A stretch of DNA of 64,000 nucleotides. Origin: Robertkochia marina. GTDB lineage: Bacteria; Bacteroidota; Bacteroidia; Flavobacteriales; Flavobacteriaceae. The position numbers were made by a program, and so were the translations under genes. The notes below the pieces were generated by a model that saw nothing but the letters and a program-made list of their open reading frames with translations, made no database searches and had not been told where the DNA came from. Positions 4,924-20,147 of this stretch are shown piece after piece. Position 1 is the stretch's first letter. Every line of letters starts with the position of its first letter. The DNA is taken from positions 558,001 to 622,000 of the forward strand of contig NZ_SSMC01000001.1 in the NCBI RefSeq assembly GCF_004799345.1, written 5' to 3'.

Positions 4924-4967
4924 ATGACATATGTCATAGGTTTGCCTTGAATATGCCCCTAGTTTTA
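4924..4967 (+). promoter_or_regulatory. FNR-type operator and promoter of hemN
   Basis: Perfect palindrome ATGAC-ATAT-GTCAT at 4924-4937, then exactly 22 bp, then TAGTTTTA at 4960-4967, a 7/8 match to the Bacteroidota -7 box TAnnTTTG. If transcription starts about 4 nt past the box, the palindrome is centred near -41.5, the class II activator position. The same arrangement occurs at three other promoters in the window. Confidence 0.75.
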
Positions 4968-4986
4968 CATTCAAATATTACACCTC

Positions 4987-6354
4987 ATGTGCAACAGTCG
5001 CCTTATCCAAAAGTACAACGTACCGGGTCCCCGTTATACCAGCTACCCCACCGTTCCGTATTGGGATGCTCCCGGATTCAGCGCCGACCAGTGGAAACAA
5101 CATTCCCTGAATACCTTCAGGCAGAGTAACCTTGAGGAGGGTATCAGCTTATACATTCACCTGCCATACTGTGAAAGCATGTGCACCTTTTGCGGTTGCC
5201 ACAAGCGAATTACCACACGTCATGAAGTTGAAGCCCCCTACATAGAAACCCTCCTGGCTGAATGGAAGCTTTATTGTGATCTTTTTGAAGAGACTCCGGT
5301 GATCAAAGAGATCCACCTGGGTGGTGGTACCCCCACCTTCTTTTCCCCCGAAAACCTGAAACGTCTTATTGATGGCATTTTTGAACACGCCATTCGTGCC
5401 GCAAACTGGGAATTCAGTTTTGAAGGCCATCCCAACAACACCACCTATGACCATCTGAAAGCCTTGCGCAGTGTTGGTTTTACCAGGGTGAGTTACGGAG
5501 TACAGGACTATTCTCCCAAAGTGCAAAAGGCCATCAACAGGATCCAGCCTTACGACAGGGTTAAGAAAGCTACTGAATTGGCCAGAGAACTAGGGTATGA
5601 GTCCATCAGTCATGACCTGGTATATGGGTTGCCTTTTCAAACGGAAGCTGATATCATTGAAACCATCAATAAGACCATTCCTTTAATGCCCGACCGTATT
5701 GCCTTTTACAGTTATGCCCATGTACCATGGATCAAGGGCAACGGACAACGTGGTTTTAAGGATGAAGATCTGCCTAAGGGCGAATTAAAGCGGCAGCTTT
5801 ATGAAACCGGCAAGACCCTGTTACAGGAACTGGGGTATAAGGAGATCGGTATGGATCATTTTGCTCAAACCGATGATGCCTTGTACAAAGCAATGACGGG
5901 CGGCAGGCTGCATCGTAATTTTATGGGATATACACCCTCCAAAACCTCTTTGATGATAGGACTGGGCGCCTCCAGCATAAGCGACAGCTGGACCGCTTTT
6001 GCACAAAATGAAAAAAATATAGATACGTATATGGCTATGGTGAAGCAGGGCGAGATCCCGGTGTACCGCGGACATATACTTACCTCTGAAGACCTGGTGA
6101 TCAGAAAACATATACTTAACCTTATGTGCAGATTGCACACCTCATGGGAAAACGACGACCTTAATTTCGAAGACCTTCCAAATACCCTTGTCCGTTTATC
6201 GGAAATGGAAGAAGACGGGCTTCTGGAAATCGGAAAGCATGATATTAGAATTAGCGAAAAAGGAAGGCCTTTTATCAGAAACATCTGTATGGCCTTCGAT
6301 ATGCGGTTACGTAGGAGTAAACCCGATACTCAGTTATTTTCTATGACGATCTGA
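4987..6354 (+). CDS. hemN: Oxygen-independent coproporphyrinogen III dehydrogenase
   Basis: Radical-SAM enzyme of 455 residues that decarboxylates coproporphyrinogen III to protoporphyrinogen IX without oxygen, in the cytosol. The iron-sulfur motif reads YCESMCTFCGC with cysteines at 62, 66, 69 and 71, the numbering known for E. coli HemN. The N-terminal PGPRYTSYPT and the GGGTPTFF loop (about residue 112) are also HemN hallmarks. Length matches the family, so this is true HemN rather than a HemW paralogue. The palindromic promoter upstream and the neighbouring cbb3 genes fit induction at low oxygen. Its 3' end overlaps the convergent methyltransferase gene by 14 bp. Confidence 0.95.
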   Translation: MCNSRLIQKYNVPGPRYTSYPTVPYWDAPGFSADQWKQHSLNTFRQSNLEEGISLYIHLPYCESMCTFCGCHKRITTRHEVEAPYIETLLAEWKLYCDLFEETPVIKEIHLGGGTPTFFSPENLKRLIDGIFEHAIRAANWEFSFEGHPNNTTYDHLKALRSVGFTRVSYGVQDYSPKVQKAINRIQPYDRVKKATELARELGYESISHDLVYGLPFQTEADIIETINKTIPLMPDRIAFYSYAHVPWIKGNGQRGFKDEDLPKGELKRQLYETGKTLLQELGYKEIGMDHFAQTDDALYKAMTGGRLHRNFMGYTPSKTSLMIGLGASSISDSWTAFAQNEKNIDTYMAMVKQGEIPVYRGHILTSEDLVIRKHILNLMCRLHTSWENDDLNFEDLPNTLVRLSEMEEDGLLEIGKHDIRISEKGRPFIRNICMAFDMRLRRSKPDTQLFSMTI

Positions 6355-6982
6355 GTATCATCATGATCTCCATATTGGTTGGCTCCCCGTTCTGAGAACG
6401 GGGAGTTTTTTTATCTATACTTATTATTTGTAACCCGGCTTTGGCTATCAGTGACTCTACCGCTGCTTCCTTATAAAAATGCATATACAAGACGTCGCCT
6501 TCTGTGTTTACTGAAGCCACCGGACCGGAGCTTTCTTTTTGCCCTACCAGGAAACTCAGATAACAAACTCCCCCTGAGCTCAGCAAGTTGGCAATTTGGC
6601 TTAAGTGTAATCTGACCTGACCGGCATCCAGGTAGGGTAATACGAACCCTGAAACCACCCCGTCAAAACCGCCTTGTAAAAAACTCTCTATTTCGAGTAC
6701 ATTCCCTTCATAGAATCCGGCTTCAGGATTTAACTGTCGCGCTTCCTGCAGCATTGCAGGGGCTATATCTACCCCTGTAAGTTCAAGATCATTGCGATGA
6801 TCGAGTAAAAACCGACTGATATTTCCCGGTCCGCACCCCAGGTCTAAGATTCGCCCGCCATTGGGAATACCTTCAAGAAAATCCAATAACATCGCCCCAT
6901 AATTACCCTGGTCAAGGTACTTCTCTTTATAGGCCCTTGCGTATTTATTAAAGATGAATCGGGTGTTTTCGAGGTGGTTCAT
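6341..6982 (-). CDS. Class I SAM-dependent methyltransferase
   Basis: A 213-residue Rossmann-fold methyltransferase. Motif I is ILDLGCGPGNISR (about 45-57), the acidic ribose-binding residue lies in LTGVDIAPAMLQEAR, and FDGVVSGFVLPYL is the post-motif strand. The substrate is not identifiable; the overall look is UbiE/BioC-like but too short and divergent to assign. The last 24 codons coincide with the terminator hairpin of the convergent hemN gene, which constrains its C-terminal residues. Confidence 0.85.
   Translation of the reverse strand: MNHLENTRFIFNKYARAYKEKYLDQGNYGAMLLDFLEGIPNGGRILDLGCGPGNISRFLLDHRNDLELTGVDIAPAMLQEARQLNPEAGFYEGNVLEIESFLQGGFDGVVSGFVLPYLDAGQVRLHLSQIANLLSSGGVCYLSFLVGQKESSGPVASVNTEGDVLYMHFYKEAAVESLIAKAGLQIISIDKKTPRSQNGEPTNMEIMMILRSS
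6383..6412 (+). terminator. Rho-independent terminator of hemN, inside the convergent gene
   Basis: A perfect 10-bp stem (CTCCCCGTTC / GAACGGGGAG, loop TGA) followed by seven T. It lies 28 bp past the hemN stop and entirely within the 3' coding end of the convergent methyltransferase gene. Confidence 0.85.
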
Positions 6983-7039
6983 CTGATAAAGATATAAGAA
7001 TCAAGCGAAATCACCCCATGTGCGGCCAATGCCGCGCAC

Positions 7040-7068
7040 ACCCCTCCTTTGAAAGGAGGGGATAATTC
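7040..7068. repeat. Short hairpin repeat, family II, copy A
   Basis: ACCCCTCCTTT directly followed by GAAAGGAGGGG and then ATAATTC. Nearly the same unit recurs at 21579-21608 (ACCCCTCCTT-AC-AAAGGAGGGG then TATAATTC), again in a gap without genes. Confidence 0.6.
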
Positions 7069-7106
7069 ATTGTAATAATATATGTTGAGCTAATTAATCG
7101 TTTGAT

Positions 7107-7158
7107 CCCCTTCCCCGCACCAGGGGAAGGTGGTTTTGTAAAACAAAACCGGAAGGGG
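7107..7158. repeat. Two-hairpin intergenic element, family III, copy A
   Basis: Hairpin one is CCTTCCCC / GGGGAAGG, hairpin two is GGTTTTG / CAAAACC with a 5-nt loop, and a closing GGAAGGGG can pair with the first CCCCTTCC. The same layout with changed but still paired bases is seen at 56611-56661 and, in the opposite orientation, at 21917-21968. Confidence 0.65.
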
Positions 7159-7271
7159 TTATTAAATTCTATCTCCAAGTACATTTAAAAACCCATTCCC
7201 TTTTTAAGAAGGGGTGGCCGGAGGCGGGGGCCATTAAAACCAACGACTAAATGTTCGACAAGGTATAAGCA

Positions 7272-7385
7272 GAACGCCACAACCTGCTTTTGCAAGCGCG
7301 CCAGCGGGCTCCCCTGGCTGCCGACAGGTAAATTCGCTAAAATGGTTCACTGAACCATTTCTTCACGCTCGGCCCTGCGAAGACG
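7272..7385 (+). repeat. Dispersed intergenic repeat, family I, copy B
   Basis: Shares GCGCGCCAGC, GGCTC, TCGCTAAAATGGT, ACCATTT, TTCACGCTCGGCCC and AAGACG, in that order, with the copy at 731-825. It carries about 20 extra bases (CCCTGGCTGCCGACAGG region) before the stem. The stem at 7340-7360 is AAATGGTTCA / TGAACCATTT: bases differ from copy A, but pairing is kept. Confidence 0.65.
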
Positions 7386-7432
7386 AATAAACCATCGCTG
7401 CACCCTTCTTGAATCTTTATTCTTGATTCTAA

Positions 7433-8143
7433 CTACGGTGTAACGCAATCAGCCCCGGCCTTTACAGCCAGGTTCATATCAGATGGAGAGAGGTAGGGAA
7501 TACCGAGACCCAGACCTCGAAGCACAAACAGAACACCGATCAGGATCACCACATAGGGGATGGCTTTATTCAGTCGGTTACGCATGGTAACTGAAAGAAA
7601 ATTACCGCTGTAGGCAGCAATACTCATAAGGGGTATGGTACCCATACCGAAAAGAGCCATATATAAACTGCCTTGCCAGGCGCTCCCCATGGCTATGGCT
7701 CCAAACAGCGCCATATACACCAGGCCACAAGGTAAAAATCCGTTCAGAAAGCCTATGGTGTAAAGGGTAGCCGGCGATCTGTCTTTCAGGCGTTCACCCA
7801 GTGCATTTTTTACACGGGAAACCATCAGGTAAAAAGGTGCCAGGATCCGATTATTACCTGCCTTTCCAATTAAAGGGAATAATGCGGCCAAAACCATGAT
7901 CACGCCAAGAACCACCGAAAGACGCTGTTGCATTCCCGAAATAAACAATCCGCGACCAATGAGGCCAAACAATACTCCTATCAAAGCATAGGTAGTAATA
8001 CGCCCGGCATGGTACCCCATTAATTGCAAAAAGCGCCTTACCGCATTGGTACGATCCAGCGGCAATACAAAGGCAATGGGTCCGCACATGCCAGCGCAGT
8101 GCAAACTCCCCAAGAAACCCAGTATAAGCCCGCTGTATATCAT
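7433..8143 (-). CDS. Sulfite exporter TauE/SafE-like membrane protein of the cbb3 cluster
   Basis: A 236-residue polytopic protein with about six hydrophobic spans. The N-terminal HCAGMCGP (residues 15-22) and the later FLNGFLPCGLVYMAL are signature sequences of the SafE/UreH-type family found at the end of bacterial cco clusters, where copper or cytochrome assembly roles have been proposed. Its start shares one base with the ccoH stop (TAATG), so the two are translationally coupled. The transported substrate is unknown; copper handling is inferred from context and the Cys/His motif. Confidence 0.8.
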   Translation of the reverse strand: MIYSGLILGFLGSLHCAGMCGPIAFVLPLDRTNAVRRFLQLMGYHAGRITTYALIGVLFGLIGRGLFISGMQQRLSVVLGVIMVLAALFPLIGKAGNNRILAPFYLMVSRVKNALGERLKDRSPATLYTIGFLNGFLPCGLVYMALFGAIAMGSAWQGSLYMALFGMGTIPLMSIAAYSGNFLSVTMRNRLNKAIPYVVILIGVLFVLRGLGLGIPYLSPSDMNLAVKAGADCVTP

Positions 8144-8589
8144 TAAAATTTGATCGATTGTTTTACAAGATAGGTTTCGCCCTCATAGCTCAAGTTGGCA
8201 ATAAGGTTCCAACGGCCATCCAATAAACGGTTTTTAGGTATGAGCAAATATGGATCTGACAATGAAATAGCAACCTCAAAGTCAAATTGTTTATCAGATG
8301 GCCTGTACAGGAACACTTTTCCTTTTATATTTTCGGGGATCAGATCTTCAGGAAATTTCACCATTAATCCCTCCTCCACACGGCGTACCTCCAGGCTTAT
8401 CCCCCGGTCAGCAGCACGTTGTTCAGCATCTAATTCCGTTTGAAATTGCAATTCCTTCTTGTAGTACTCCTCCGTAACCAATTCGTGCTCGAGGCTCTCA
8501 TCGGTCAGGCTCCTCACCACAAAAAACATGATGAAGCTTATAAACAATACAAATGCTATCACAATTCCTGTACCCCAGTTAATTTTCAT
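8143..8589 (-). CDS. ccoH: FixH/CcoH cbb3 oxidase assembly protein
   Basis: Single N-terminal transmembrane helix (residues 7-27), then EELVTEEYYKKELQFQ-type sequence: the stretch LVTEEYYKKELQFQTELD is characteristic of FixH. A small beta-rich extracytoplasmic domain follows. At 148 residues it is normal for the family. CcoH acts in assembly or stability of the cbb3 oxidase. It sits between ccoG (182-bp gap) and the SafE-like gene (1-base overlap). Confidence 0.88.
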   Translation of the reverse strand: MKINWGTGIVIAFVLFISFIMFFVVRSLTDESLEHELVTEEYYKKELQFQTELDAEQRAADRGISLEVRRVEEGLMVKFPEDLIPENIKGKVFLYRPSDKQFDFEVAISLSDPYLLIPKNRLLDGRWNLIANLSYEGETYLVKQSIKF

Positions 8590-8751
8590 TTTTTCTCAGT
8601 TATGCGTTATGCGGTTATTCAGTTAATAATTATACTCATACTCAATTCTCAAACTTGTATTACCTCTCGATACAATTGCTTCGCAATCACTCGAGGTGAC
8701 GTGAACTCAAACTCAAACCTTGCCTGCCGTCCCTAAAGCTTTCGGGAGGCA

Positions 8752-8766
8752 GACTCGTCCCTCGAA
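8752..8766. repeat. Isolated copy of the ACTCGTCCCTC short repeat
   Basis: ACTCGTCCCTCGAAC lies at the downstream edge of ccoG. The core ACTCGTCCCT also occurs at about 839-848 and at 34879-34897, and it is the reverse complement of the 13-bp unit tandemly repeated at 34256-34346. It appears to be a single dispersed unit. Confidence 0.4.
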
Positions 8767-8771
8767 CTGTC

Positions 8772-10193
8772 CTATTGGTAGCTTCTCGGCCCCAAAAAGG
8801 ACGAGGTTGTCGTTTCTATAAGTTTTCCATCGCTGTAAACGCCCAGCTTTATCTTCATTTGATCATCATCTAAAAAGGCTCTGTCGATCTCAATAAACAA
8901 CGTACCTTCTGCAAGGCCCTGCTCCGGAACATTGATGCGTTCTCCGGAGACCAGTTTTACTTCTCCTTCCGGAGACATCAGCCTGATATCTACATCTTCT
9001 ATGGCATCAACCGTCTTATTAATGATCTTATAGGTATACACATTACTAATGATATGTTCTCCTTTGCGTTCATACAACTGTCCGGGCAATCGCAATACAG
9101 TAGCCTCCACATCATTTCTCAGGAAGAGCATCCCGGTAAGCACGGCAATAAGTATTCCGAGAACAGCTGTATATCCTTTCATCCTCGCGGTAAACCTAAA
9201 GGTGTCCTTCCTGGCAATATTATCTTCGCTGGCATACCTGATCAATCCCTTGGGCAGGTTCACCGATTCCATCATATGGTCACAGGCATCAATACAGGCG
9301 GTACAATTCACGCATTCGAGCTGGGTTCCGTTTCGAATATCGATCCCTGTCGGGCACACATGAACACACTGAAAACAGTCTATACAATCACCATGTCCAA
9401 GGGCCTTCCGGTCTTCCCCCTTCCTTATTTTCTTCCTTCCGTTTTCAGCCTCTCCCCGCACGTGATCATAGGCTACTACGATCGATTTATTATCCAGTAA
9501 AACTCCTTGCAACCTTCCGTAAGGACAGGCTATAATGCATACCTGTTCGCGAAACCAAGCAAAAACAAAATAGAATACCGCGGTAAATATCAGCAAGGCT
9601 ACCAGGGTACTTATATGTGCCAGGGGGCCATCAGTAATATAAGCGATCAGCTCATCACTCCCTATAAGATAGGCCAGAAACACATTGGCTATCAGGAAAG
9701 AGATCACAAAGAAGACTGACCATTTCAACAATCGCTTTCTTATCTTTTCAGCATTCCAGGCTTGCTTTTGCAACCTGATCTGCGCTCCCCGATCGCCATC
9801 GATCCAGTACTCTATTCTCCGGAAAACCATCTCCATAAAAATGGTTTGCGGGCAGATCCATCCGCAGAAAATCCGGCCGAAAACCACAGTAAACAGGGTC
9901 ACAAAGATGACCCCTATGATCATAGAGATCACAAAAAGGTGAAAATCCTGGGGCCAGAACGGAAATCCGAAAATATTGAATCTCCGCTCCATGACATTAA
10001 ACATCAGGAACTGATTGCCGTTTACTTTGATAAAAGGCGACAGAAACAAAAAGGCCAGTAAAAAGTAACTTACGTACTTCCGGTATTCATAGAATTTACC
10101 CGAGGGTTTTTTAGGGAATATCCAGCTGCGTTTCCCATCGTCGGTAACAGTACCTATCGAATCTCTGAATACTTCCTTTCCCTGGTCGGCCAT
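8772..10193 (-). CDS. ccoG: Cytochrome c oxidase accessory protein CcoG (FixG)
   Basis: A 473-residue membrane iron-sulfur protein. It has several N-terminal spans with CGWICPQTIFMEMVFRR, a CIIACPYGRLQ motif, two ferredoxin-like clusters (CIDCFQCVHVCPTG and CVNCTACIDACD), a further span near residue 340, and an Ig-like C-terminal domain typical of FixG. Family members reduce copper or carry electrons during cbb3 assembly. It lies 24 bp after ccoP, so it is probably on the main cco transcript. Confidence 0.95.
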   Translation of the reverse strand: MADQGKEVFRDSIGTVTDDGKRSWIFPKKPSGKFYEYRKYVSYFLLAFLFLSPFIKVNGNQFLMFNVMERRFNIFGFPFWPQDFHLFVISMIIGVIFVTLFTVVFGRIFCGWICPQTIFMEMVFRRIEYWIDGDRGAQIRLQKQAWNAEKIRKRLLKWSVFFVISFLIANVFLAYLIGSDELIAYITDGPLAHISTLVALLIFTAVFYFVFAWFREQVCIIACPYGRLQGVLLDNKSIVVAYDHVRGEAENGRKKIRKGEDRKALGHGDCIDCFQCVHVCPTGIDIRNGTQLECVNCTACIDACDHMMESVNLPKGLIRYASEDNIARKDTFRFTARMKGYTAVLGILIAVLTGMLFLRNDVEATVLRLPGQLYERKGEHIISNVYTYKIINKTVDAIEDVDIRLMSPEGEVKLVSGERINVPEQGLAEGTLFIEIDRAFLDDDQMKIKLGVYSDGKLIETTTSSFLGPRSYQ

Positions 10194-10217
10194 TCCTGTT
10201 GATTTATAGTTTTGGGG

Positions 10218-11189
10218 TTACTCTTCTACCACCGCTGAGGCAGCTTCCGTTTGAACCGCTTCCGGTTCTTCAACGGCAACTGTATCTGCACTCTGCTCAG
10301 CAGGTGTTGCAGCCGGGGCATCAGGATCGTTCCATACCTCCCCTTCGGCATCTTTTGGATTTGCCGGGGTGGTTCCCTGTAAAGAGAGCACATAACTCGA
10401 CACCTGGGCGATCTCTGATGGCTTCAATACTGCATTCCATGCGATCATACCCTTGCCTGAGCGTCCGCCTTCAGAAACGGTTTTGAAGACATTCTTAATA
10501 CCTCCTCCCAGGATCCAGTATTCATCGGTCAGGTTCGGACCAATACCTCCGCCTCCGTCCTGCATATGACAGGCCACACAGTTGGTTTGAAAAATGGTTT
10601 CACCCTTGCTCAGATCTCCGGCGTCGGTAAGCAACTCTACAGTATTAACATCGATCAGGTCTTTGGCGGTCTTCTTATACTCTTCGATCGCAATCCTGGC
10701 CTCTGTCATTTCCTGATCGTATTCCTGGGCTTGCGATGGCGCTCCCATTACGTGAAAACGTACCAGGTAAATTCCGGCGAATACGATGGAGATATAAAAT
10801 CCGTACAGCCACCAAGGCGGTAAACTGTTATCCAGTTCCTGTATCCCGTCGTAGTTATGATCGAGAATGATCTCACCCTCTTCCTCAATGGGTTTTGTCT
10901 TAGTCAGGTTCTTATACAGTTTCCGGTACCAGGCATTCTTCTCTGCTTCTATCCTTGCGGTTTCGGCAGCAGCCTTTTGCTCTTCGGTCATCATGGCCTC
11001 TGAAATATTATTCATGGCAGCCAGCATAACCTCGATCCCTACCAGAGTGATGGTAAACAACACCAAAAAGAGAGAGACTTCCGGGTATTCTATAAAAGCG
11101 GGTTTATCAGAATCGATCATCCATTCGGCCCCCAAAAACACCAGGGTTACAATGACGATTACTCTTAAATATGATGCAAAGTCTTTCAT
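10218..11189 (-). CDS. ccoP: cbb3-type cytochrome c oxidase subunit III (CcoP), one CXXCH visible
   Basis: Residues 1-60 carry two hydrophobic spans. HNYDGIQELDNSLPPWW (about 109-125) is the CcoP N-terminal signature, followed by another span and then a cytochrome c domain with CVACH near residue 207 and a distal KGMIAW methionine ligand. Proteobacterial CcoP has two c-type haems; only one CXXCH is present here, so this is a single-haem form. The extra N-terminal spans and the Ala/Glu-rich C-terminal tail are also seen in Bacteroidota homologues. It starts 3 bp after ccoQ. Confidence 0.93.
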   Translation of the reverse strand: MKDFASYLRVIVIVTLVFLGAEWMIDSDKPAFIEYPEVSLFLVLFTITLVGIEVMLAAMNNISEAMMTEEQKAAAETARIEAEKNAWYRKLYKNLTKTKPIEEEGEIILDHNYDGIQELDNSLPPWWLYGFYISIVFAGIYLVRFHVMGAPSQAQEYDQEMTEARIAIEEYKKTAKDLIDVNTVELLTDAGDLSKGETIFQTNCVACHMQDGGGGIGPNLTDEYWILGGGIKNVFKTVSEGGRSGKGMIAWNAVLKPSEIAQVSSYVLSLQGTTPANPKDAEGEVWNDPDAPAATPAEQSADTVAVEEPEAVQTEAASAVVEE

Positions 11190-11192
11190 GGT

Positions 11193-11372
11193 CTATTCGT
11201 TTTCTTGGTTGTCTAATGGAAAATGGCTCACCTTTTTGATATAGTCTTTCTTAGCGGTTAACACCCACCAGAATAGCAATACAAAGAACACAAAGAAGAT
11301 GCTCAAGGAAATGATCGGGTATATCTCAACACCCTCTATAGAAGACATATGGCCTTTTACAAACTTAAACAT
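11193..11372 (-). CDS. ccoQ: cbb3 oxidase small subunit CcoQ-like
   Basis: A 59-codon frame fitted exactly between ccoNO (2-bp gap) and ccoP (3-bp gap). It begins MFKFVKGHMSSIEGVEIYP, has one transmembrane helix (SIFFVFFVLLFWWVL) and a basic cytosolic tail (TAKKDYIKKV). Size, single span and the position between subunits I/II and III identify it as the CcoQ-type subunit, which stabilises the complex. Confidence 0.85.
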   Translation of the reverse strand: MFKFVKGHMSSIEGVEIYPIISLSIFFVFFVLLFWWVLTAKKDYIKKVSHFPLDNQENE

Positions 11373-11374
11373 AC

Positions 11375-13582
11375 CTATTCGTTTTTAGCGGTTAATTCGT
11401 CGTTAGGATCTTTCACCTTAATATCCGTACCCAATCGCTGCAGGTAGGCAATAAGAGCGGTGATCTCGCGGTCTTTCATCTCAATAAAATCTTCCCCCCT
11501 GGCTGCCGCATCCCGTTTATCCTGCTCATAGTTCTCCTTGAACTCCGGATCGGCATACAGGTTTTGTTCTATTTGAGCTGCCTGTGCATCCATATGTTTC
11601 TGGGCATTGGCAATATCTTCATCGGTATAAGGTACCCCAAGGGTCACCATGGCTTCCATTTTATCCTCCGTTTGCGAACGGTCAAGCTCGGCGCGGAACA
11701 ACCATTTATAGGCCGGCATGATACTTCCTGCTGAAGTTGTTTGCGGATCGTACATATGGTTCAGGTGCCAGTTATCAGAGTACTTTCCACCTACCCTCAT
11801 CAGGTCCGGTCCGGTACGTTTACTTCCCCACAAGAAAGGATGATCGTATACATATTCTCCGGCTTTGGAGTATTCGCCATTATAGCGTTCGGTCTCACTT
11901 CTGAACGGACGAACCAGTTGGGAGTGACAGCTCACACAACCTTCACGAATGTATATATCTCGCCCTTCCAGCTCCAAAGGTGTGTAGGGTTTTACGCTGG
12001 TGATGGTCGGGATATTCGATTTTACCAAAAGGGTTGGTACGATCTGAATAATACCTCCGATAAGAATTGCGATGGTAGCCAATACAGTCAGTTGCACAGG
12101 GCGTCTTTCCAGCCAGGTGTGGAAGGCTTCTCCCGCAACACGACCTTTTCTTACCTTGGTAAGGGCAGGCGCTTCTGCCAACTCATCCTCTACCTGGGCG
12201 CCTCGACGGATGGTCATGACAGCATTGTAAATACCAACCAGAACCCCTATCAGGTAAAGTGAACCTCCAATGGCACGCATCCAATACATCGGAATGATCT
12301 GGGTAACGGTTTCCAAAAAGTTACCGTATACCAGGGTGCCGTCAGGATTAAATTGTTTCCACATAGAAGCCTGGGTAAATCCGGCTACATACATGGGTAA
12401 GGCATAGATAATAATACCAAGGGTGCCGATCCAGAAATGGAAATTAGCAAGTCCTACAGAATGTAGTTTTGTTTTGAACATTCTGGGTACCAGATAGTAC
12501 ATCATACCGAAGGTCAGGAATCCGTTCCAGGCCAGGGCCCCAACGTGTACGTGAGCAATAACCCAGTCGGTAAAGTGGGCCATGGCATTGAAGGTTTTCA
12601 GTGACAACATGGGGCCTTCAAAAGTAGCCATACCGTAACCGGTAATAGCAACCACCATGAATTTAAGAACAGGATCGGTACGTACCTTATCCCATGCTCC
12701 TCTCAGCGTCAGCAATCCATTGATCATACCCCCCCATGACGGAGCGATGAGCATGATAGAGAATACCACCCCAAGATTTTGCGCCCAGTCCGGCAGGGCT
12801 GAATACAACAGGTGGTGCGGACCGGCCCAGATATAAATAAAGATCAGTGACCAGAAGTGAACAATAGAAAGACGGTAAGAATACACCGGTCTGTTGGCGG
12901 CCTTAGGCACGAAATAGTACATAAGCCCCAGGAAGGGAGTGGTCAAAAAGAAGGCCACCGCGTTGTGACCGTACCACCATTGAACCAGGGCATCCTGTAC
13001 CCCTGCATATACCGAATAACTTTTCAGGGCAGATACCGGAAGTTCCAGTGAATTGAAGATGTGAAGTACCGCAACAGTAACGAAGGTAGCGAGGTAAAAC
13101 CACACCGCCACATAAAGGTGGCGTTGTCTTCGCTTCATAATGGTCCCTATCATATTAACCCCAAAAGCCACCCAAACCAAAGCAATCGCTATATCAATTG
13201 GCCACTCCAGTTCTGCGTACTCCTTAGAGGTGGTGAACCCCAGCGGGAGTGAAATTGCGGCAGCGACAATAATTAACTGCCAGCCCCAGAAGTTAAAATT
13301 CGACAGAAAATCACTATACATCCGCGCCTTAAGCAGTCGTTGCAGCGAATAGTAAACTCCGGCATAAAGGGCATTCCCCACAAAGGCGAAGATCACTGCG
13401 TTGGTGTGCAGCGGACGCAAGCGCCCGAAACTCAACCAGGAGATCCCATCGGTCATATTAGGGAAAACGAACATAAAGGCCAGTAAAAGGCCCACCAGCA
13501 TCCCCACTGCCCCCCAGAGCATGGTTGCATAGAGAAACTTTTTAACGATCTTGTTATCGTAATAAAATTGCTGTACTTCCAT
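11375..13582 (-). CDS. ccoNO: Fused cbb3 oxidase subunits I and II (CcoN-CcoO)
   Basis: A 735-residue fusion. Residues about 1-470 are the catalytic 12-helix haem-copper subunit CcoN: RLRPLHTNAVIFAF, WWYGHNAVAFFLTTPFLGLMYYFVPK, the HHLLYSALPDW loop and HVHVGALAWNG carry the haem and copper histidines. After a linker rich in charged residues, about 485-735 form CcoO: one membrane anchor, GCVSCHSQLVRPF (haem c at about 548) and a distal Met. Proteobacteria encode these as two genes; the fusion is common in Bacteroidota. The complex reduces oxygen to water with high affinity and pumps protons at the inner membrane. Confidence 0.96.
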   Translation of the reverse strand: MEVQQFYYDNKIVKKFLYATMLWGAVGMLVGLLLAFMFVFPNMTDGISWLSFGRLRPLHTNAVIFAFVGNALYAGVYYSLQRLLKARMYSDFLSNFNFWGWQLIIVAAAISLPLGFTTSKEYAELEWPIDIAIALVWVAFGVNMIGTIMKRRQRHLYVAVWFYLATFVTVAVLHIFNSLELPVSALKSYSVYAGVQDALVQWWYGHNAVAFFLTTPFLGLMYYFVPKAANRPVYSYRLSIVHFWSLIFIYIWAGPHHLLYSALPDWAQNLGVVFSIMLIAPSWGGMINGLLTLRGAWDKVRTDPVLKFMVVAITGYGMATFEGPMLSLKTFNAMAHFTDWVIAHVHVGALAWNGFLTFGMMYYLVPRMFKTKLHSVGLANFHFWIGTLGIIIYALPMYVAGFTQASMWKQFNPDGTLVYGNFLETVTQIIPMYWMRAIGGSLYLIGVLVGIYNAVMTIRRGAQVEDELAEAPALTKVRKGRVAGEAFHTWLERRPVQLTVLATIAILIGGIIQIVPTLLVKSNIPTITSVKPYTPLELEGRDIYIREGCVSCHSQLVRPFRSETERYNGEYSKAGEYVYDHPFLWGSKRTGPDLMRVGGKYSDNWHLNHMYDPQTTSAGSIMPAYKWLFRAELDRSQTEDKMEAMVTLGVPYTDEDIANAQKHMDAQAAQIEQNLYADPEFKENYEQDKRDAAARGEDFIEMKDREITALIAYLQRLGTDIKVKDPNDELTAKNE

Positions 13583-13594
13583 AGTAATTTCTAA

Positions 13595-13783
13595 TTATTT
13601 GCTTGGTTCAGATTTTTCATTTTCAGAAGCATCCTTTTCTACAAGTTCATCTTCAAAAAGCATACGCACGCTGGGCGTGTAGCTGTCGTCAAACTGCCCG
13701 CTCTTTACGGCTGTAACGAAGGCAATAAAGAATACCACCGCCACGACCAAACTTACCGTGATCAGAATATAGATTACACTCAT
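13595..13783 (-). CDS. ccoS: cbb3 oxidase assembly protein CcoS
   Basis: A 62-residue protein with one N-terminal helix (MSVIYILITVSLVVAVVFFIAF) followed by AVKSGQFDD, the conserved CcoS signature, and an acidic tail. CcoS is needed to insert cofactors into the cbb3 oxidase. It begins the ccoS-NO-Q-P-G run, starts about 16 nt after the predicted transcription start of the palindrome-bearing promoter, and is 12 bp from ccoNO. Confidence 0.92.
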   Translation of the reverse strand: MSVIYILITVSLVVAVVFFIAFVTAVKSGQFDDSYTPSVRMLFEDELVEKDASENEKSEPSK

Positions 13784-13803
13784 ACCTATTAAGAATGCTT
13801 TAA

Positions 13804-13847
13804 CAAAAGTATTTTTCTACCGAAAAGAAAAACATGACAATTGTCAT
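13804..13847 (-). promoter_or_regulatory. FNR-type operator and promoter of ccoS-NO-Q-P-G
   Basis: Palindrome ATGAC-AATT-GTCAT at 13834-13847, a 22-bp spacer, then TACTTTTG (read on the minus strand, 13811-13804), a perfect TAnnTTTG box. It sits between ccoI and ccoS, giving the oxidase structural genes their own oxygen-responsive promoter. Confidence 0.8.
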
Positions 13848-13854
13848 GTAGGTC

Positions 13855-16224
13855 TTATTTTAATCGCTTTCCTACCCATCCTGTTGCCAGGGTGGTGAAT
13901 CCTACCACAGTTAATGAGCTAATGGGCATCAGAATAGCTGCCACCACGGGAGATAATTGGCCCGTAACCGCAAAGAATAAACCAATTATATTGTAAAGGA
14001 AAGACAGGATAAAGCTGTATTTGATAATGGTTACTGCCTTAAGTGAAGCCCATAAATAACGATCGAGTTCCTGTATTTTAGAGGCGTCAAGAATAGCATC
14101 ACAGGCCGGAGAGAATACATTGACATTCTCTGCGATAGCAACCCCAACATCACTTTGCTGAAGGGCTCCGGCATCATTCAGACCATCGCCCACCATCATA
14201 ACCCCGGCGCCTTCCTGCTGGTGAAAACGCACATATTCCAGCTTATCATCAGGCTTTTGATTAAAGAACATTCCTGTACCTGCCGGTAGTAATTTTTCCA
14301 GGTTACCCTTTTCGCTGTCATTGTCGCCAGAAAGGATCACGAGCTCGTAGTTTCTTTTCAAACGCTTGAACAGGGAAGCAATTCCCTTGCGGTATTTATT
14401 ATAAAATGTATACGCACCCTTATAGGTATTGTTCACCCCGACGTGTACCACAGTCTTTAATGAAAGTGCGTCTTGTTCTACCCCCACAAAGGAAGACGAC
14501 CCTGCTCTGACCAATGCTCCGTCTGATTGTGCCTCCACTCCTTTCCCGGCATACTCTTTAAAGCTTTCAAGTGGCTTAATGTCATAAGCATCCAACAATT
14601 CATAGAGCTGGCGGCTCAGCGGATGATTGGAATTACGGAGTGCTGATCGCAAAAGCCCCCCTTCTTCCTCGCCCAGATCCTCTCCGGAGTAGGTGATCTC
14701 ATTGCCCAGCCCTGAGGTGATCGTTCCTGTTTTATCAAATACCACCGTGTTAAGTCCGGCCATTCTCTCAATAACCTGGGCATCTTTCAGGTAAAACTTA
14801 TTACGCCCGAATATTCTGAGCATATTACCCAGGGTAAAAGGCGCCGATAGTGCCAATGCACAAGGACAGGCTACGATCAAAATGGCAGTGATAACCGGGA
14901 TGGCTTTTGAGGCATCGAGCATAAACCACACAACACCCGAGATCAGTGCGATCAATAAAATGATGATGGTAAAATACTTGCTGACGGAATTGGTCAGGTC
15001 GCGAAACCTGGTAGACTTATCGTTTTGAAACACCTCATTGCTCCAAAGTTGGGTCAGATAACTCTGGGAAACATTTTTCACCGCTTGCACTTCTATGGCC
15101 TCCCCGAGCTGTTTCCCTCCTGCAAACAAGGAGTCTCCTGAGATCTTGGTCACCGGATCCGATTCTCCGGTAACAAAACTGTAATCTATTCTGGCCTTGC
15201 CACGAAGCAGTATCGCATCTGCCGGAATGATCTCTTCGTTTCTTATCAACAGGCGATCACCCTCTTTGATCTTGTAAATATCAACCGGTTCTTCTTTACC
15301 CGATGTATTAATGCGGGTAATCCCTATGGGGAAATAGCTCTTATAATCTCTTTCAAAAGAGAGAAAGTCGTAGGTGCGCTGTTGAAAATACCTCCCCAGC
15401 AACAGGAAGAACAACAACCCGGTCAGGCTGTCAAAAAAACCCTGCCCGGTATCCGTCATGATCTCCCAGGTACTTCTTAAAAACAGAACTGCGATACCCA
15501 GGGCAATAGGCACATCAATATTGAGTATGCCCGCCCGAAGGCCCTTCCAGGCCGACCGAAAATAATCGGATGCCGCATAGAAAACCACCGGCAATGACAT
15601 GACGAACATGATAAGGCGAAAGAAGGGTTTGTACTGATTGAGCCAGTATTCGTCCATTTCGAAATATTCGGGAAATGAAAGTAACATGACATTGCCAAAG
15701 GCAAAACCGGCTACCCCGAGTTTATAGATCAGGCTGCGATTTACTGCACCTTCTTTTTTGTCGTAATCCTCTAGACTGATATGCGGGGCATACCCTATGG
15801 TCGCCATAAGAAGCACGAGAGCTTTTAACCCCAGTGCCGAACGAAATGTAATACGGGCGGTTTTCCTGGGAAAATTTACCTGGGAGCTTCGTACACGATC
15901 ATCCAGTTTATGCAGGTTTTCTAAGACCCAGATACAGGAGCTGCAATGCATTTGCGGAATATAAAGATTGACAACAGCCCATTCGCCATCGTCAAACTCC
16001 AATAATCGTTGCTGCAAATCGGCATTGTCAAGAAAGTCGTATTTCCCGGCTTTTTGCTCAGGACTGATCCCGGGCGTCTTTTCTAATTTGTAATACCCCT
16101 CCAGCCCATTTCCTGACAGGATCTCATAAACGGTTTTGCACCCTGCACAGCAAAATACCTTTTCTTGAAAAACAATACGATCTGCATCGCAGTCTAAACC
16201 ACAATGGTAACAGGATTGACCCAT
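13855..16224 (-). CDS. ccoI: Copper-transporting P-type ATPase CcoI (FixI)
   Basis: A P1B-type ATPase of 789 residues that exports copper for cbb3 assembly. An N-terminal cysteine-rich segment (CYHCGLDC at 5-12, FCCAGC at 24-29) precedes a heavy-metal domain with MHCSSC (92-97). Then follow the transmembrane CPCALAL metal site (near 450), phosphorylation loop DKTGTIT (near 496), HPL of the nucleotide-binding domain (NSNHPLSRQL) and the GDGLNDAGAL hinge. All catalytic motifs are intact. Gene order next to ccoS and the cysteine-rich extension distinguish it from CopA. It has its own palindrome-bearing promoter shared with the divergent regulator gene. Confidence 0.95.
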   Translation of the reverse strand: MGQSCYHCGLDCDADRIVFQEKVFCCAGCKTVYEILSGNGLEGYYKLEKTPGISPEQKAGKYDFLDNADLQQRLLEFDDGEWAVVNLYIPQMHCSSCIWVLENLHKLDDRVRSSQVNFPRKTARITFRSALGLKALVLLMATIGYAPHISLEDYDKKEGAVNRSLIYKLGVAGFAFGNVMLLSFPEYFEMDEYWLNQYKPFFRLIMFVMSLPVVFYAASDYFRSAWKGLRAGILNIDVPIALGIAVLFLRSTWEIMTDTGQGFFDSLTGLLFFLLLGRYFQQRTYDFLSFERDYKSYFPIGITRINTSGKEEPVDIYKIKEGDRLLIRNEEIIPADAILLRGKARIDYSFVTGESDPVTKISGDSLFAGGKQLGEAIEVQAVKNVSQSYLTQLWSNEVFQNDKSTRFRDLTNSVSKYFTIIILLIALISGVVWFMLDASKAIPVITAILIVACPCALALSAPFTLGNMLRIFGRNKFYLKDAQVIERMAGLNTVVFDKTGTITSGLGNEITYSGEDLGEEEGGLLRSALRNSNHPLSRQLYELLDAYDIKPLESFKEYAGKGVEAQSDGALVRAGSSSFVGVEQDALSLKTVVHVGVNNTYKGAYTFYNKYRKGIASLFKRLKRNYELVILSGDNDSEKGNLEKLLPAGTGMFFNQKPDDKLEYVRFHQQEGAGVMMVGDGLNDAGALQQSDVGVAIAENVNVFSPACDAILDASKIQELDRYLWASLKAVTIIKYSFILSFLYNIIGLFFAVTGQLSPVVAAILMPISSLTVVGFTTLATGWVGKRLK

Positions 16225-16242
16225 ATTTGCTCATTTTCAGGA

Positions 16243-16286
16243 CAAAAATCCTGATCTCCAATAGCAATTTATATGATTTTTGTCAT
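16243..16286 (-). promoter_or_regulatory. FNR-type operator and promoter of ccoI (divergent to the regulator gene)
   Basis: Near-perfect palindrome ATGAT-TTTT-GTCAT at 16273-16286. On the minus strand a GATTTTTG box (7/8 to TAnnTTTG) lies at 16250-16243, again with a 22-bp spacer. No equally placed box is seen towards the plus-strand regulator gene, so the site should activate ccoI and may repress or not affect the regulator. Confidence 0.7.
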
Positions 16287-16330
16287 GATATTTGTATTTT
16301 AGAATACGAAATAGCAACCTAAGCATTATT

Positions 16331-17017
16331 ATGAGTAAATGTGAACAATGTATTGTTCGTCAGTTCAGCTCGCTCAAGGCCCTAAACAAAACAGAACTAA
16401 TACGGATCTCGGACTGCAAGGAATCTATTGTTATCAAAAGGGGTGAGACCATCTTTGAAGAGGGTCAGCACCTTGATGGCGTTTACTGTGTACGTTCTGG
16501 TATCTGTAAGCTCACTAAACTTAGTGACAACGGGCGACAACAGATCATTAAATTCGTAAAAAGCGGAGACCTCCTGGGCCAACGCACCGTGATTTCAAAC
16601 GATACGGTAAACCTGTCGGCCATAGCGGTGCAGGACATGGAAGTCTGCTTTATCCCTAAAAGAGAGATTAATCAGGCTTTCCAGGAAAACCCTCGTTTTT
16701 CGGGAGAGGTGATCAATGTACTCTGTAACGATCTGAAAGATGCGGACAATTCTATAGTAAACATGGCCCAGAAGCCTGTTAAAGAACGTCTGGCTTATTA
16801 CCTGATGCATTTTCATGATGACTTCGGATTAGACCAGGAAGGATACCTTTCTGTTCAGTTATCCAGAGAAGAAATTGCAGGTATGGTAGGCACGGCAACC
16901 GAATCACTGATCAGAATGTTGTCTGAGTTCAACAAAAAAGGACTCATCGAAACCAAAGGGAAACGGATCAAGATTAAAGATACCGTTCAAATGGAACGAA
17001 TGGCAGAAGGATTCTAA
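16331..17017 (+). CDS. CRP/FNR family regulator, FNR-like
   Basis: A 228-residue regulator starting MSKCEQC; an upstream in-frame start lies in the operator region and is not used. A cyclic-nucleotide-type beta roll spans about 15-125 and a winged helix spans about 160-215, with recognition helix TATESLIRMLSEF (E191 and R195 match the FNR/CRP Glu and Arg that read the TGA core). Aligned from memory to E. coli FNR, C4, C7 and C106 fall on C20, C23 and C122, but the C29 position is Ser13. An extra Cys29 and other cysteines exist. An iron-sulfur oxygen sensor is therefore likely but not certain. It is divergent from ccoI and is the natural candidate to bind ATGAC-N4-GTCAT. Confidence 0.88.
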   Translation: MSKCEQCIVRQFSSLKALNKTELIRISDCKESIVIKRGETIFEEGQHLDGVYCVRSGICKLTKLSDNGRQQIIKFVKSGDLLGQRTVISNDTVNLSAIAVQDMEVCFIPKREINQAFQENPRFSGEVINVLCNDLKDADNSIVNMAQKPVKERLAYYLMHFHDDFGLDQEGYLSVQLSREEIAGMVGTATESLIRMLSEFNKKGLIETKGKRIKIKDTVQMERMAEGF

Positions 17018-17319
17018 TCAGTAAATGGTTTAGAGTTTACTGTTGGCAGTGATGGATCTCATGATATCATTGCAGCATCCTCCTTTTTCCTATTGTTATT
17101 TACTCCATATATAAATTCTACAATTACCTCCGTAAGAAGTAATATTTCGCGCAGTTCGGGAAAATCATTTTTCTACACTCTAAAGCGGGATAACTATGCG
17201 CCATAAGTCATAACAATATTGCGGTATTCATTCATAACCACGTACCTACCTAACCGCAGGCAGAACCGCATAACCGTATAACATCATACCCCTCCCCCGT
17301 TAGCAAATCATTACTGTTT

Positions 17320-17345
17320 AATGAAGAAAAAAATTTTTCTTCATT
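17320..17345. terminator. AT-rich 12-bp inverted repeat, possible terminator
   Basis: AATGAAGAAAAA and TTTTTCTTCATT are separated by two bases. In RNA this gives a long A/U stem with a U run on either side. It lies 300 bp after the regulator gene and 75 bp before the next operator, so it could insulate the two transcripts; its low GC makes strong termination uncertain. Confidence 0.35.
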
Positions 17346-17414
17346 TTAATCTTCATTCATCACGCTGATTCATGGTGCATTAGCCTCCGGGCCCCATTTT
17401 ACGGTAAAAACCGC

Positions 17415-17458
17415 ATGACAAAAGTCATGTTTTCCATAGGAGATAATCCACATCTTTG
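17415..17458 (+). promoter_or_regulatory. FNR-type operator and promoter of the yceI-porin cluster
   Basis: Palindrome ATGAC-AAAA-GTCAT at 17415-17428, a 22-bp spacer, then CATCTTTG at 17451-17458 (7/8 to TAnnTTTG). The expected start would be about 25 nt before the first yceI gene. Confidence 0.75.
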
Positions 17459-17488: not shown

Positions 17489-18073
17489 ATGAGAATTCTA
17501 ATCATAAATAGTAAAGCCTTAGCCGCCACGATATCTCTTTTCTTTTTGGGATTTCTTTCTATGACGGCTCAGACCTATACCTTAGATAACAGCAATTCGG
17601 AGGTTACCATTTTTGGTACTTCTAATATTCACGATTGGGAGATCGTGGTAGAAGAGCAAAAGGGAAGTCTCACCCTGAAACAGAATAGTCCTGTCACGTT
17701 AACGGCGATGAAAATTAGCATCCCGGTAAAGGGCCTGAAAAGCGGAAAGTCAGGGATGGACAAAAACACTTATAAAGCCATGAATGCTGACGATTACGCA
17801 GAGGTGACCTTTACACTTACCTCGCCTGCAACTTTGAGCGAGGCCGGAAGTGGAATCTACAAAGTAAAGGCCACAGGAAACCTGACCATCTCAGGGGTTA
17901 CCAAGGCCACCGACCTTGTTTTCACCCTTAAAAAGACTGCTTCAGGGGTAATATTATCCGGAGAAAAAACACTTGATATGACCACATTTGACATTGAACC
18001 GCCATCAGCTTTGATGGGTACCATAAAAACCGGTAAGGAGGTAACTCTAAAATTCAACACCACCTTACAATAA
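17489..18073 (+). CDS. YceI family periplasmic protein
   Basis: A 194-residue exported protein with a hydrophobic signal segment ending MTAQ (about residue 28). The body shows the YceI lipocalin-like pattern: a YTLDNSNSEVTIFGTSNIHDWE opening, AMNADDYAEVTFTLT in the middle, GNLTISGVTKATDLVFTL and a FDIEPPSALMGTIKTGKEVTLKF ending. YceI proteins bind isoprenoid lipids such as polyprenyl or quinone-like molecules in the periplasm. It is first in a cluster with a porin and two more YceI members and is led by an FNR-type promoter, suggesting a role in respiration or envelope change at low oxygen (inference). Confidence 0.9.
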   Translation: MRILIINSKALAATISLFFLGFLSMTAQTYTLDNSNSEVTIFGTSNIHDWEIVVEEQKGSLTLKQNSPVTLTAMKISIPVKGLKSGKSGMDKNTYKAMNADDYAEVTFTLTSPATLSEAGSGIYKVKATGNLTISGVTKATDLVFTLKKTASGVILSGEKTLDMTTFDIEPPSALMGTIKTGKEVTLKFNTTLQ

Positions 18074-18119: not shown

Positions 18120-19460
18120 ATGAGAACACTTTTATCAAAAATTCTGGTAGTGGCGATGCTCTTCGCCGGAATGAGCATATATGCCCAAAAACGTGACCTT
18201 TCTAATTTCAGACCACCGGACCAACGAGGACTCCATATGTTCGAAGCTCCTAAAGATTCCGTACAATTATTTGACGGTATCAAGGTTCGTGTAGGTGGAT
18301 CTTCTACCCTTCAGTTCCAAGGATTAAGTCATGAAAATGCTTATGACAATGCTGCTGTAGGAGATGTTGGAATTCCTGATCAGGATGCCCTTGATCAATT
18401 ACAATTGATCGGGATCGAAAGCAACTTTAACCTGGCTACTGCTAACCTCGACCTGGATGTACAGTTGGCCAAGGGGGTAAGAATGCACTTAAGAACTTAC
18501 CTGTCTTCAAGACACCACCCCGAGCCTTATGTAAAAGGTGGTTACTTCCTGATCGACGACCTAAGCTTTATCAGCGAAGGGTTTATGGAAAACTTCATGA
18601 AGTATGTAACCGTAAAAGTTGGTCACATGGAGAACAACTACGGGGATGCCCACTTCAGAAGATCTGATAACTCTATGGCTCTTTACAATCCATTTGTTGG
18701 GAACCTGATCATGGATGCCTTTACAACCGAAGTAGGTGCTGAGGTATATTACCGAAATGGCGGGTTCATCGGAATGCTTGGTGTAAGTAACGGAAAGCTT
18801 AACCAGTCTGTTGCAGAATCTGACACCAAACCTTCTTTCCTTGCCAAGTTAGGTTATGACAACTACGCCCAGGGTGATGACCTCAGATTCCGTTTAACAG
18901 GGTCTGTGTACACCACTTCGGAGTCTTCCAGAACCTACCTGTATGCTGCCGACCGTGCCGGATCAAGATACTACCTGGTACTGGAGTCTGTTCAAACAAG
19001 AGGAAGAGGAGGTCTTGCGGCAACCAGCCCTGTTAGTCAGTTCAGATCAGGACGTTTTGACCCCGGATTCAGCAACGAACTCACTGCATTCATGTTCAAC
19101 CCATTCGTTAAGTTTGGCGGACTTGAGTTCTTCGGAACCGCAGAATTCTCAAGTGGTAAGAGCAATAATGAAGCCGATACCCGTAATGCCACTCAATTGG
19201 CCGGAGAACTGATCTACCGATTCGGAGGCAATGATGACCTTTACGTAGGAACACGTTATAACACCGTAAATGCCGAACTCGGTTCAGGAGATGTAGATAT
19301 CAACAGATTTAACCTCTCTGCAGGATACTTCCTGACTAAGAACATCCTCGCCAAACTGGAGTATGTAAACCAAAACCACGATGGAGCAGGATATGACGGA
19401 ACCAAATTCCAGGACGGTTCATTCAACGGAATAATGGTTGAGGCAGTGATCAGCTTCTAA
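18120..19460 (+). CDS. Outer-membrane porin-like beta-barrel protein
   Basis: A 446-residue protein with a signal peptide (MRTLLSKILVVAMLFAGMSIYAQ, 1-22), a KVRVGGSSTLQFQGL first strand and a terminal strand EAVISF ending in Phe, the outer-membrane insertion signal. Repeated Gly/aromatic strands through its length fit a 14- to 18-strand porin. Substrate is unknown. The 46-bp gap after the first yceI gene, without a terminator, indicates co-transcription; a strong terminator follows its stop. Confidence 0.85.
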   Translation: MRTLLSKILVVAMLFAGMSIYAQKRDLSNFRPPDQRGLHMFEAPKDSVQLFDGIKVRVGGSSTLQFQGLSHENAYDNAAVGDVGIPDQDALDQLQLIGIESNFNLATANLDLDVQLAKGVRMHLRTYLSSRHHPEPYVKGGYFLIDDLSFISEGFMENFMKYVTVKVGHMENNYGDAHFRRSDNSMALYNPFVGNLIMDAFTTEVGAEVYYRNGGFIGMLGVSNGKLNQSVAESDTKPSFLAKLGYDNYAQGDDLRFRLTGSVYTTSESSRTYLYAADRAGSRYYLVLESVQTRGRGGLAATSPVSQFRSGRFDPGFSNELTAFMFNPFVKFGGLEFFGTAEFSSGKSNNEADTRNATQLAGELIYRFGGNDDLYVGTRYNTVNAELGSGDVDINRFNLSAGYFLTKNILAKLEYVNQNHDGAGYDGTKFQDGSFNGIMVEAVISF

Positions 19461-19531: not shown

Positions 19532-19562
19532 TTTAAGTTTATTATTTTCAACCACATTGAAT

Positions 19563-20147
19563 ATGAGAGCGTTAATTATTTTCTTGGTAATTACCGGCCT
19601 TTTATCTTTCCGGTCTTCAACCTCGGCCACTGCCGATAAACTGGTCTATATTAAAAACAGTAGTTCCTTAAGTATCATCGGGAAAACCAATGTGAACACC
19701 TTTAAATGCCGTTATGATATTGAGGAGATCTCAGACCCACTGCAAGTGGGCTACACTCAAATAGATGAGACCCTGACCTTCAATTCGGCAGTGCTGCATT
19801 TACAAAATGAATATTTTGACTGCGGAGGAAAAATGATCAACAGTGACCTGCATAAGTTACTTGACACCCCCAGGCATCCGGAAGTAACCATTGACCTCCA
19901 GAGGGTATATCCGCATCCCCGGATCAAGAACAATTATATCGCAGCAGTGAGTATCACCATAGCCGGAGTAAGTAAACAATACGATATGTTTTTGAAAGTA
20001 ACCCCGGAAGATGACCTGTCTGTAAAAGGTGTTCTCGAGATCATGCTTCCAGATTTCAACCTTGAACCGCCGCAAAAAGCTTTAGGGATGATACGGGTAA
20101 AAGATGACCTGGTTATTGAATTTCTGCTTGATCTGGTAGAAGCATGA
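19563..20147 (+). CDS. YceI-like family protein, divergent
   Basis: A 194-residue protein with a short N-terminal hydrophobic export segment. The opening SSSLSIIGKTNVNTFKCRYD, the central HPEVTIDLQRVYPHP and closing NLEPPQKALGMIRVKDDLVIEFLL follow the YceI scheme, but less closely than its two neighbours. A TTG start two codons upstream is possible; the ATG is preferred. It carries internal cysteines at KCRY and FDCGG, absent from the other two copies. It lies 100 bp after the porin stop, past a terminator, so it may have its own weak promoter. Confidence 0.8.
   Translation: MRALIIFLVITGLLSFRSSTSATADKLVYIKNSSSLSIIGKTNVNTFKCRYDIEEISDPLQVGYTQIDETLTFNSAVLHLQNEYFDCGGKMINSDLHKLLDTPRHPEVTIDLQRVYPHPRIKNNYIAAVSITIAGVSKQYDMFLKVTPEDDLSVKGVLEIMLPDFNLEPPQKALGMIRVKDDLVIEFLLDLVEA

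Follow-up and report, generated by a model that had tools for sequence, protein, structure and literature searches.

A conserved ATGAY-N4-RTCAT promoter element and two candidate CRP/FNR-type regulators of a probable low-oxygen regulon in Robertkochia marina and other Flavobacteriaceae

Low-oxygen sensing in Bacteroidota is, to our knowledge, poorly described. Here, we analyzed a 64,000-nucleotide stretch of the Robertkochia marina genome (Flavobacteriaceae; contig NZ_SSMC01000001.1, positions 558,001 to 622,000), hereafter the window, in which an earlier note had pointed to four palindromic dyads of the form ATGAC-N4-GTCAT, each followed at a fixed distance by a -7-like promoter box. This composite-site observation is confirmed. 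With a probability of roughly 0.8, judged from sequence comparisons, the four sites serve as operators in a low-oxygen regulon that spans the family and is under CRP/FNR-type class II activation. Two regulators are candidates for this role, namely, the CRP/FNR-family protein encoded in the window at 16331..17017 (type A) and a response regulator encoded elsewhere in the same genome, in which a receiver domain (REC) is joined to a CRP/FNR part (type B). A CRP/FNR-type dimer would bind ATGAY-N4-RTCAT centred at -41.5 and, once bound, would activate a promoter carrying the Bacteroidota -7 box.

All four dyads are present, three of them exact and the one facing ccoI with a single mismatch to ATGACN4GTCAT, and a TAnnTTTG-like box lies exactly 22 bp past each, as had been claimed. 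On the plus strand, the dyad upstream of hemN (ATGACATATGTCAT, 4924..4937) is followed by a box matching five of the six specified bases (TAGTTTTA, 4960..4967) and by the gene for the oxygen-independent coproporphyrinogen III oxidase (4987..6354; TIGR00538 above cut-off). The second dyad, exact and on the minus strand (ATGACAATTGTCAT, 13834..13847), falls in the stretch that separates the end of ccoI from a 62-amino-acid open reading frame (ORF), with a box that matches all six specified bases (TACTTTTG, 13804..13811). We take this ORF (13595..13783, minus) to be ccoS; it is the first gene before a 735-amino-acid ORF (11375..13582, minus) that is presumably a ccoN/O-type cbb3 oxidase gene. The third dyad, read toward ccoI on the minus strand (ATGACAAAAATCAT, 16273..16286; box GATTTTTG, 16243..16250, 5/6 bases), occupies the gap between the type A gene (plus strand, assigned from domain models and homologue alignments) and a heavy-metal P-type ATPase gene (13855..16224, minus). 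The latter, which we assume to be ccoI, matches P-type ATPase models, with copper and heavy-metal models below their cut-offs. The fourth dyad, exact and on the plus strand (ATGACAAAAGTCAT, 17415..17428; box CATCTTTG, 17451..17458, 5/6 bases), precedes a gene for a YceI-like protein (17489..18073, plus; weak YceI match, E 7e-4, below cut-off).

When the composite was defined as a dyad with at most one mismatch plus a TAnnTTTG box with at least 5/6 specified bases, the window held four at spacing 22 and one in all at the remaining spacings from 10 to 35. Dinucleotide shuffles of the window (n=60) gave a mean of 0.033 composites at spacing 22, bearing out the claim that a fixed spacing at four loci is unlikely to arise by chance. 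The dyad alone, at up to two mismatches, was only mildly enriched (37 versus a shuffle mean of 25.2, with 3 of 100 shuffles reaching 37), whereas the composite was strongly so, and the signal is therefore the combination of the two elements. The -7 box of Flavobacterium psychrophilum is placed at -12 to -5 in the available text of a study of that species (PMC9723704), so that, with a 22-bp spacing, the dyad would be centred at -41.5, in keeping with the class II geometry proposed earlier.

The composite is also enriched across the family. In 199 Flavobacteriaceae genomes (one per genus, R. marina included), the fixed composite at up to one mismatch gave 820 matches versus 24 for reversed-pattern controls. 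A search of the same genomes that left the outer base and the gap free (TGACN4GTCA, then TAnnTTTG) again peaked at spacing 22, with 102 of the 150 matches listed, compared with 8 at spacing 23 and 4 at 21. Spacing-23 sites of near-identical sequence occur in two genera, twice within one of them (G036, the other being G122). Base preferences were read from 80 named relatives (1.54 Mb), with only TGA/TCA and the full box fixed. This yielded 80 matches at spacing 22, mostly from two cco promoters and hence related; the next highest was spacing 20 with 18, perhaps one homologous site. At spacing 22, position 5 was T in 48 matches and C in 32, and position 10 was A or G. The strict ATGAC consensus was thus rejected in favor of ATGAY-N4-RTCAT. 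The outer pair was A...T in 74/80, so the difference from the FNR site (TTGAT-N4-ATCAA, outer pair T...A), which the earlier note had given as ATGAC in place of TTGAT, resides mainly in that pair. By hand count, the 29 genomes listed held at least 33 exact ATGAC-N4-GTCAT composites versus two of the TTGAT type.

Beyond the family, the motif system thins out. A scan of 296 genomes of the phylum (sums by hand) gave 113 matches versus 5 controls in 30 genomes of the family, 16 versus 1 in 6 genomes from the rest of the order, 34 versus 4 in 37 genomes from the rest of the class, and 33 versus 17 in 223 genomes of other classes, with 24 of these last 33 in six genomes of two families. Site density is thus highest in the family and lower elsewhere in the class, and it does not rise above background in most of the other classes sampled. 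One genome of another class (G459) contained 12 composites and also encodes a CRP/FNR protein with a four-cysteine pattern.

Within the 3.58-Mb R. marina genome, the refined pattern (ATGAY-N4-RTCAT-N22-TAnnTTTG, one mismatch allowed) gave 14 sites versus none for the reversed pattern, so that the predicted genome-wide enrichment was found. All 14 lie outside frames of at least 120 codons, and an ORF starts 18 to 108 bp past each box. A Pfam scan of the targets, which left out the gene at one site (L103), identified beyond the window an Rrf2 regulator, an acetyl-CoA hydrolase/transferase, a Usp protein, an S30AE ribosome-associated protein, a FadL/TodX-type outer membrane protein, a YtxH protein, a WG-repeat protein, and a DUF1254/DUF1214 protein; another site precedes a 139-amino-acid protein without a Pfam match. 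The Rrf2 gene faces genes presumed to encode a cytochrome c and a NosZ-like protein, with the composite in the gap (L203:630-4348). A weaker, two-mismatch composite precedes the gene for a [NiFe] hydrogenase small subunit, in a hydrogenase cluster (L202:3792-7969) whose further gene names are our assumption.

We fetched 90 sites in relatives, consisting of 30 loci and 60 picked from the listed sites before their genes were known; four were dropped for lack of an ORF of at least 90 amino acids within 450 bp, and one site was counted twice (L147, L263). The 86 downstream genes included 13 ccoN-like, 13 Usp-like, and 10 hemN-like genes (one site twice), followed by thioredoxin-like (7), an unnamed family (6), and cytochrome-c-like (5) genes, with 17 singletons. 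These group names are presumptive, helped by matches to hemN and Usp models. The targets are coherent, as the idea of a sensible low-oxygen regulon had implied, and they fit F. psychrophilum, in which cbb3 oxidase and heme biosynthesis genes rise under oxygen limitation according to the available text of PMC9723704.

A dyad with at most two mismatches was found within 220 bp of the type A gene in all 80 named relatives, and toward ccoI a box of at least 5/6 bases stood exactly 22 bp from it in 71/80. A dyad with at most one mismatch was found in the ccoS region of 50/80 relatives, some of these loci being short, and the box was at 22 bp in 50/50; these footprint counts are all raw ones, not set against shuffles. 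On the regulator side, the distance from the dyad to a box-like element is 8 bp in 34 loci and 9 bp in 29, such that the dyad would overlap the regulator promoter, and negative autoregulation is therefore predicted. The dyad at 16273 thus probably covers the promoter of the regulator gene as well, and a single dyad in this gap would activate ccoI while repressing the type A gene.

That a CRP/FNR gene sits among the sites was also borne out. The type A protein scored above cut-off with PF00027, PF13545, and PF00325, placing it in the CRP/FNR superfamily (cNMP-type beta-roll and Crp helix-turn-helix). It is not FNR proper: the NCBIfam Fnr model gave 97.8 bits against a cut-off of 228. Its nearest named homologues are 84% identical. 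Among 81 close type A sequences, six cysteines were invariant (C29 and C59 among them) and a seventh, C132, was present in 80/81. C4, C7, C53, and C106 were kept in 81/81 close and 20/20 divergent (42-57% identical) proteins, while C29, C59, and C132 drift in the divergent set (3/20, 9/20, and 4/20, respectively). An alignment of 27 sequences had 21 invariant columns, in which these four were the sole cysteines. The cluster ligands of Escherichia coli FNR are C20, C23, C29, and C122. In an alignment to Aliivibrio fischeri FNR, C4, C7, and C106 pair with FNR cysteines, the third N-terminal cysteine of FNR is replaced by Ser13, and the fourth invariant cysteine is C53 on the beta-roll. The structural model places C53 on strand 50-56 and C106 on strand 103-109. 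The natural reading of this pattern would be a cluster held by four cysteines, one of them at a shifted position, and type A is most likely a direct sensor carrying such a cysteine-ligated cluster. Four proteins outside the family share the four-cysteine pattern, as judged by eye. The recognition helix reads GTATESxIR in 81/81 close proteins. By eye, two CRP/FNR proteins from another family in the order keep a GTATESAIR helix and lack the conserved cysteines.

The earlier note had named the 16331 protein as the regulator. It remains a candidate and is not the sole one, since the R. marina genome also encodes a type B protein (G000:C2:296252-297292). A gene for a PAS histidine kinase comes first and that for the REC-CRP/FNR regulator second at about 295.0-297.3 kb (L201:2997-5296). 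Type A (called at E <= 1e-40) was found in 118 of the 199 genomes and type B (called at E <= 1e-60, scoring up to 10 candidates in each genome) in 86, R. marina included. Twenty-eight genomes without type A still had at least three sites. When 15 genomes without type A were searched at lower stringency, a relative appeared in 14, and 18 of the 22 matches lay in frames of 350-397 amino acids. Of seven such loci, six had a gene for a REC-cNMP-HTH response regulator next to one for a PAS histidine kinase, and five of these six also adjoined a Usp gene. In the one kinase/regulator pair scanned with Pfam, the regulator consisted of REC, cNMP_binding, and HTH_Crp_2 domains, an architecture distinct from the REC plus FixJ/LuxR-type output of FixJ. 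The closest solved structure to the kinase PAS domain was that of FixL (E 3.9e-10), with a histidine aligned in the FixL histidine region; in 31 type B kinases the PAS histidine was judged by eye, a regular expression having matched 0/31. Type B would be fed by the adjacent FixL-like kinase, and its recognition helix, closely related to that of type A, reads GIATESLIR in 26 and GIATETLIR in 2 matches from 30 loci.

The presence of the motif tracks both regulators. At least one composite was found in 49/49 genomes with both A and B (2.1/Mb), 61/69 with A only (0.95/Mb), 35/37 with B only (1.40/Mb), and 10/44 with neither (0.26/Mb). Rank tests versus the last group gave p values of 4e-11 (A+B), 9e-11 (A only), and 1e-14 (B only), phylogeny not being corrected for. 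Other genomes retain the motif with type B in place of type A, and this, together with the presence of type B in R. marina, excludes the 16331 regulator as sole candidate.

We consider it unlikely that type B is the main regulator acting at the window sites, leaving the 16331 regulator another role. The retention of the motif in B-only genomes speaks for that possibility, as does the position of a composite with at most two mismatches that points outward at the 3' end of 25/30 type B genes (within 1.5 kb), mostly just past the stop codon and toward a Usp gene, and R. marina does have a type B gene of its own. However, the motif is likewise kept in most A-only genomes, the dyad precedes type A in every named relative, and the own-genome type B helix deviates, with Pro for Thr (GIAPESFIR).

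A signal other than oxygen is somewhat less likely still. Type A could sense nitric oxide (NO), or redox through thiols, in place of oxygen through a [4Fe-4S] cluster, and control an NO- or denitrification-like regulon as DNR or HcpR do. The site before the Rrf2 gene beside the presumed cytochrome c and NosZ-like genes would suit this explanation, as would sites before two genes in relatives that we take to be NorC-like. So would the core TGAC-N4-GTCA shared with HcpR1 (wyTTGACnnnnGTCAArw), the subject of the paper to which a literature search for the literal motif led (PMC1274295). In the portion of that paper available, Ser or Pro at position 180 with Glu at 181 goes with TTGAC-N4-GTCAA in HcpR1 of delta-proteobacteria, and non-Arg at CRP position 180 with Glu at 181 is found here as well; both type A and type B helices therefore fit a TGA-type half-site. 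Unlike in HcpR1, the outer pair is A...T in the 74/80 matches given above, mostly from two homologous promoters, and position 14 of the listed spacing-22 family sites (n=102, hand count) is T in 73, C in 15, A, as in HcpR, in 8, and G in 6. The main targets differ too, being ccoN, Usp, and hemN, with hcp not among the genes searched for. That these three are the most common targets, and that three of the four invariant type A cysteines align with FNR cysteines, argues against this explanation.

Chance or base composition, that is, AT-rich promoters with a recurring palindrome, can be dismissed: the window dyad alone is barely enriched at two mismatches and the strict pattern at up to three mismatches loses its signal in the R. 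marina genome (55 versus 45 controls), but the shuffles, the sharp spacing peak at 22, and the enrichment in the family and in R. marina at stricter settings reject it.

Returning to a regulon with type A and type B as candidate regulators, several observations weigh against it. Eight of 118 genomes with type A lack a composite at up to one mismatch, and six of the seven examined keep a dyad with at most two mismatches before the type A gene. At 20 divergent type A loci, the dyad was found in 15 at up to two mismatches, and a box of at least 5/6 bases at 22 bp in 6 of 19 scorable loci; the helix also varies in these proteins, with only E191, I194, and R195, plus G187 and A189, invariant. The deviating own-genome type B helix belongs here as well. 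By fold, 2gau, a Crp/Fnr-family protein of Porphyromonas gingivalis and the best match of the type A model, and cAMP-type regulators outrank FNR (rank 15 and below), and the model has a predicted local distance difference test score below 50 at residues 1-5, which bears on the cysteine geometry. FNR-box composites (exact TTGAT-N4-ATCAA, same promoter) were themselves above control in the 199 genomes (16 versus 2), leaving room for some true TTGAT-type sites. Finally, the motif occurs in 10 of the 44 genomes with neither regulator, the 44 being small (mean 2.25 Mb). Of the 26 matches in that group, 17 (11 and 6) come from two incomplete assemblies (82% and 73%). A lower-stringency search of these two gave only receiver-domain matches to type B and no B-type regulator, and no type A relative was found in the one searched for it. 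The contrast persists when genomes of at least 2.5 Mb are compared (0.134/Mb for the 13 with neither versus 0.94-2.1/Mb).

The proposed system resembles FNR of E. coli and A. fischeri in its 5-4-5 dyad with a TGA core, its predicted -41.5 geometry, its low-oxygen targets, and the CRP/FNR fold (5e44, template modeling score 0.79, rank 21). Unlike FNR, whose recognition residues are V-E-x-x-S-R, the helix here presents T-E-x-x-I-R, and type A has Ser13 and the additional C53 noted above. In rhizobia (FixL-FixJ-FixK, or hFixL-FxkR-FixK with FnrN), FixK and FnrN share one anaerobox and fnrN autoregulates, as described in the available text of PMC7888657. In Flavobacteriaceae, one operator box would likewise receive two inputs, one from a FixL-type two-component system and the other from a direct sensor of the FNR type; in contrast to rhizobia, a single protein unites receiver and CRP/FNR DNA-binding part, the box reads ATGAY-N4-RTCAT, and the promoter belongs to the Bacteroidota -7 type.

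Two further features lie downstream in the window. A 446-amino-acid ORF (18120..19460, plus), which the earlier note had labelled a porin, gave no family match in the family-model scan. Three ORFs that look like YceI by eye stand close together (17489-18073, 19557-20147, and 20368-20955), and only the first has a composite site.

Our search of the open-access literature (titles and abstract starts) returned no paper on this operator in Bacteroidota, and nothing in it described this variant of the operator, this set of cysteines, or two regulators exchanged at a single operator; an earlier prediction may exist. The main text of the F. psychrophilum study, as available, contains no word beginning 'crp' or 'palindrom' (PMC9723704). 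In the available text of a metatranscriptome study, a Flavobacteriales CRP/FNR homologue was assigned to carbon sensing by its likeness to MalR (PMC8510549).

Taken together, these results describe a real and well-supported variant of CRP/FNR low-oxygen control, whose elements all belong to known kinds and whose mechanism is inferred. The chances are about even that they represent a distinct Flavobacteriaceae oxygen response, in which an FNR-like [4Fe-4S] protein with rearranged ligands (C4-x2-C7, C53, C106) and a FixL-like kinase with its fused REC-CRP/FNR partner act on one operator, ATGAY-N4-RTCAT at -41.5. If so, lineages could exchange one sensor for the other, or have both, with the regulon left intact. 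Comparative evidence from 199 genomes links the operator, the promoter geometry, the targets, and the two candidate regulators, and makes oxygen control of genes for the cbb3 oxidase, for heme synthesis, and for related functions directly testable in a family that is of major standing in marine and soil habitats. Sensor exchange over one conserved operator would further offer a clean case for studying the evolution of regulatory wiring.

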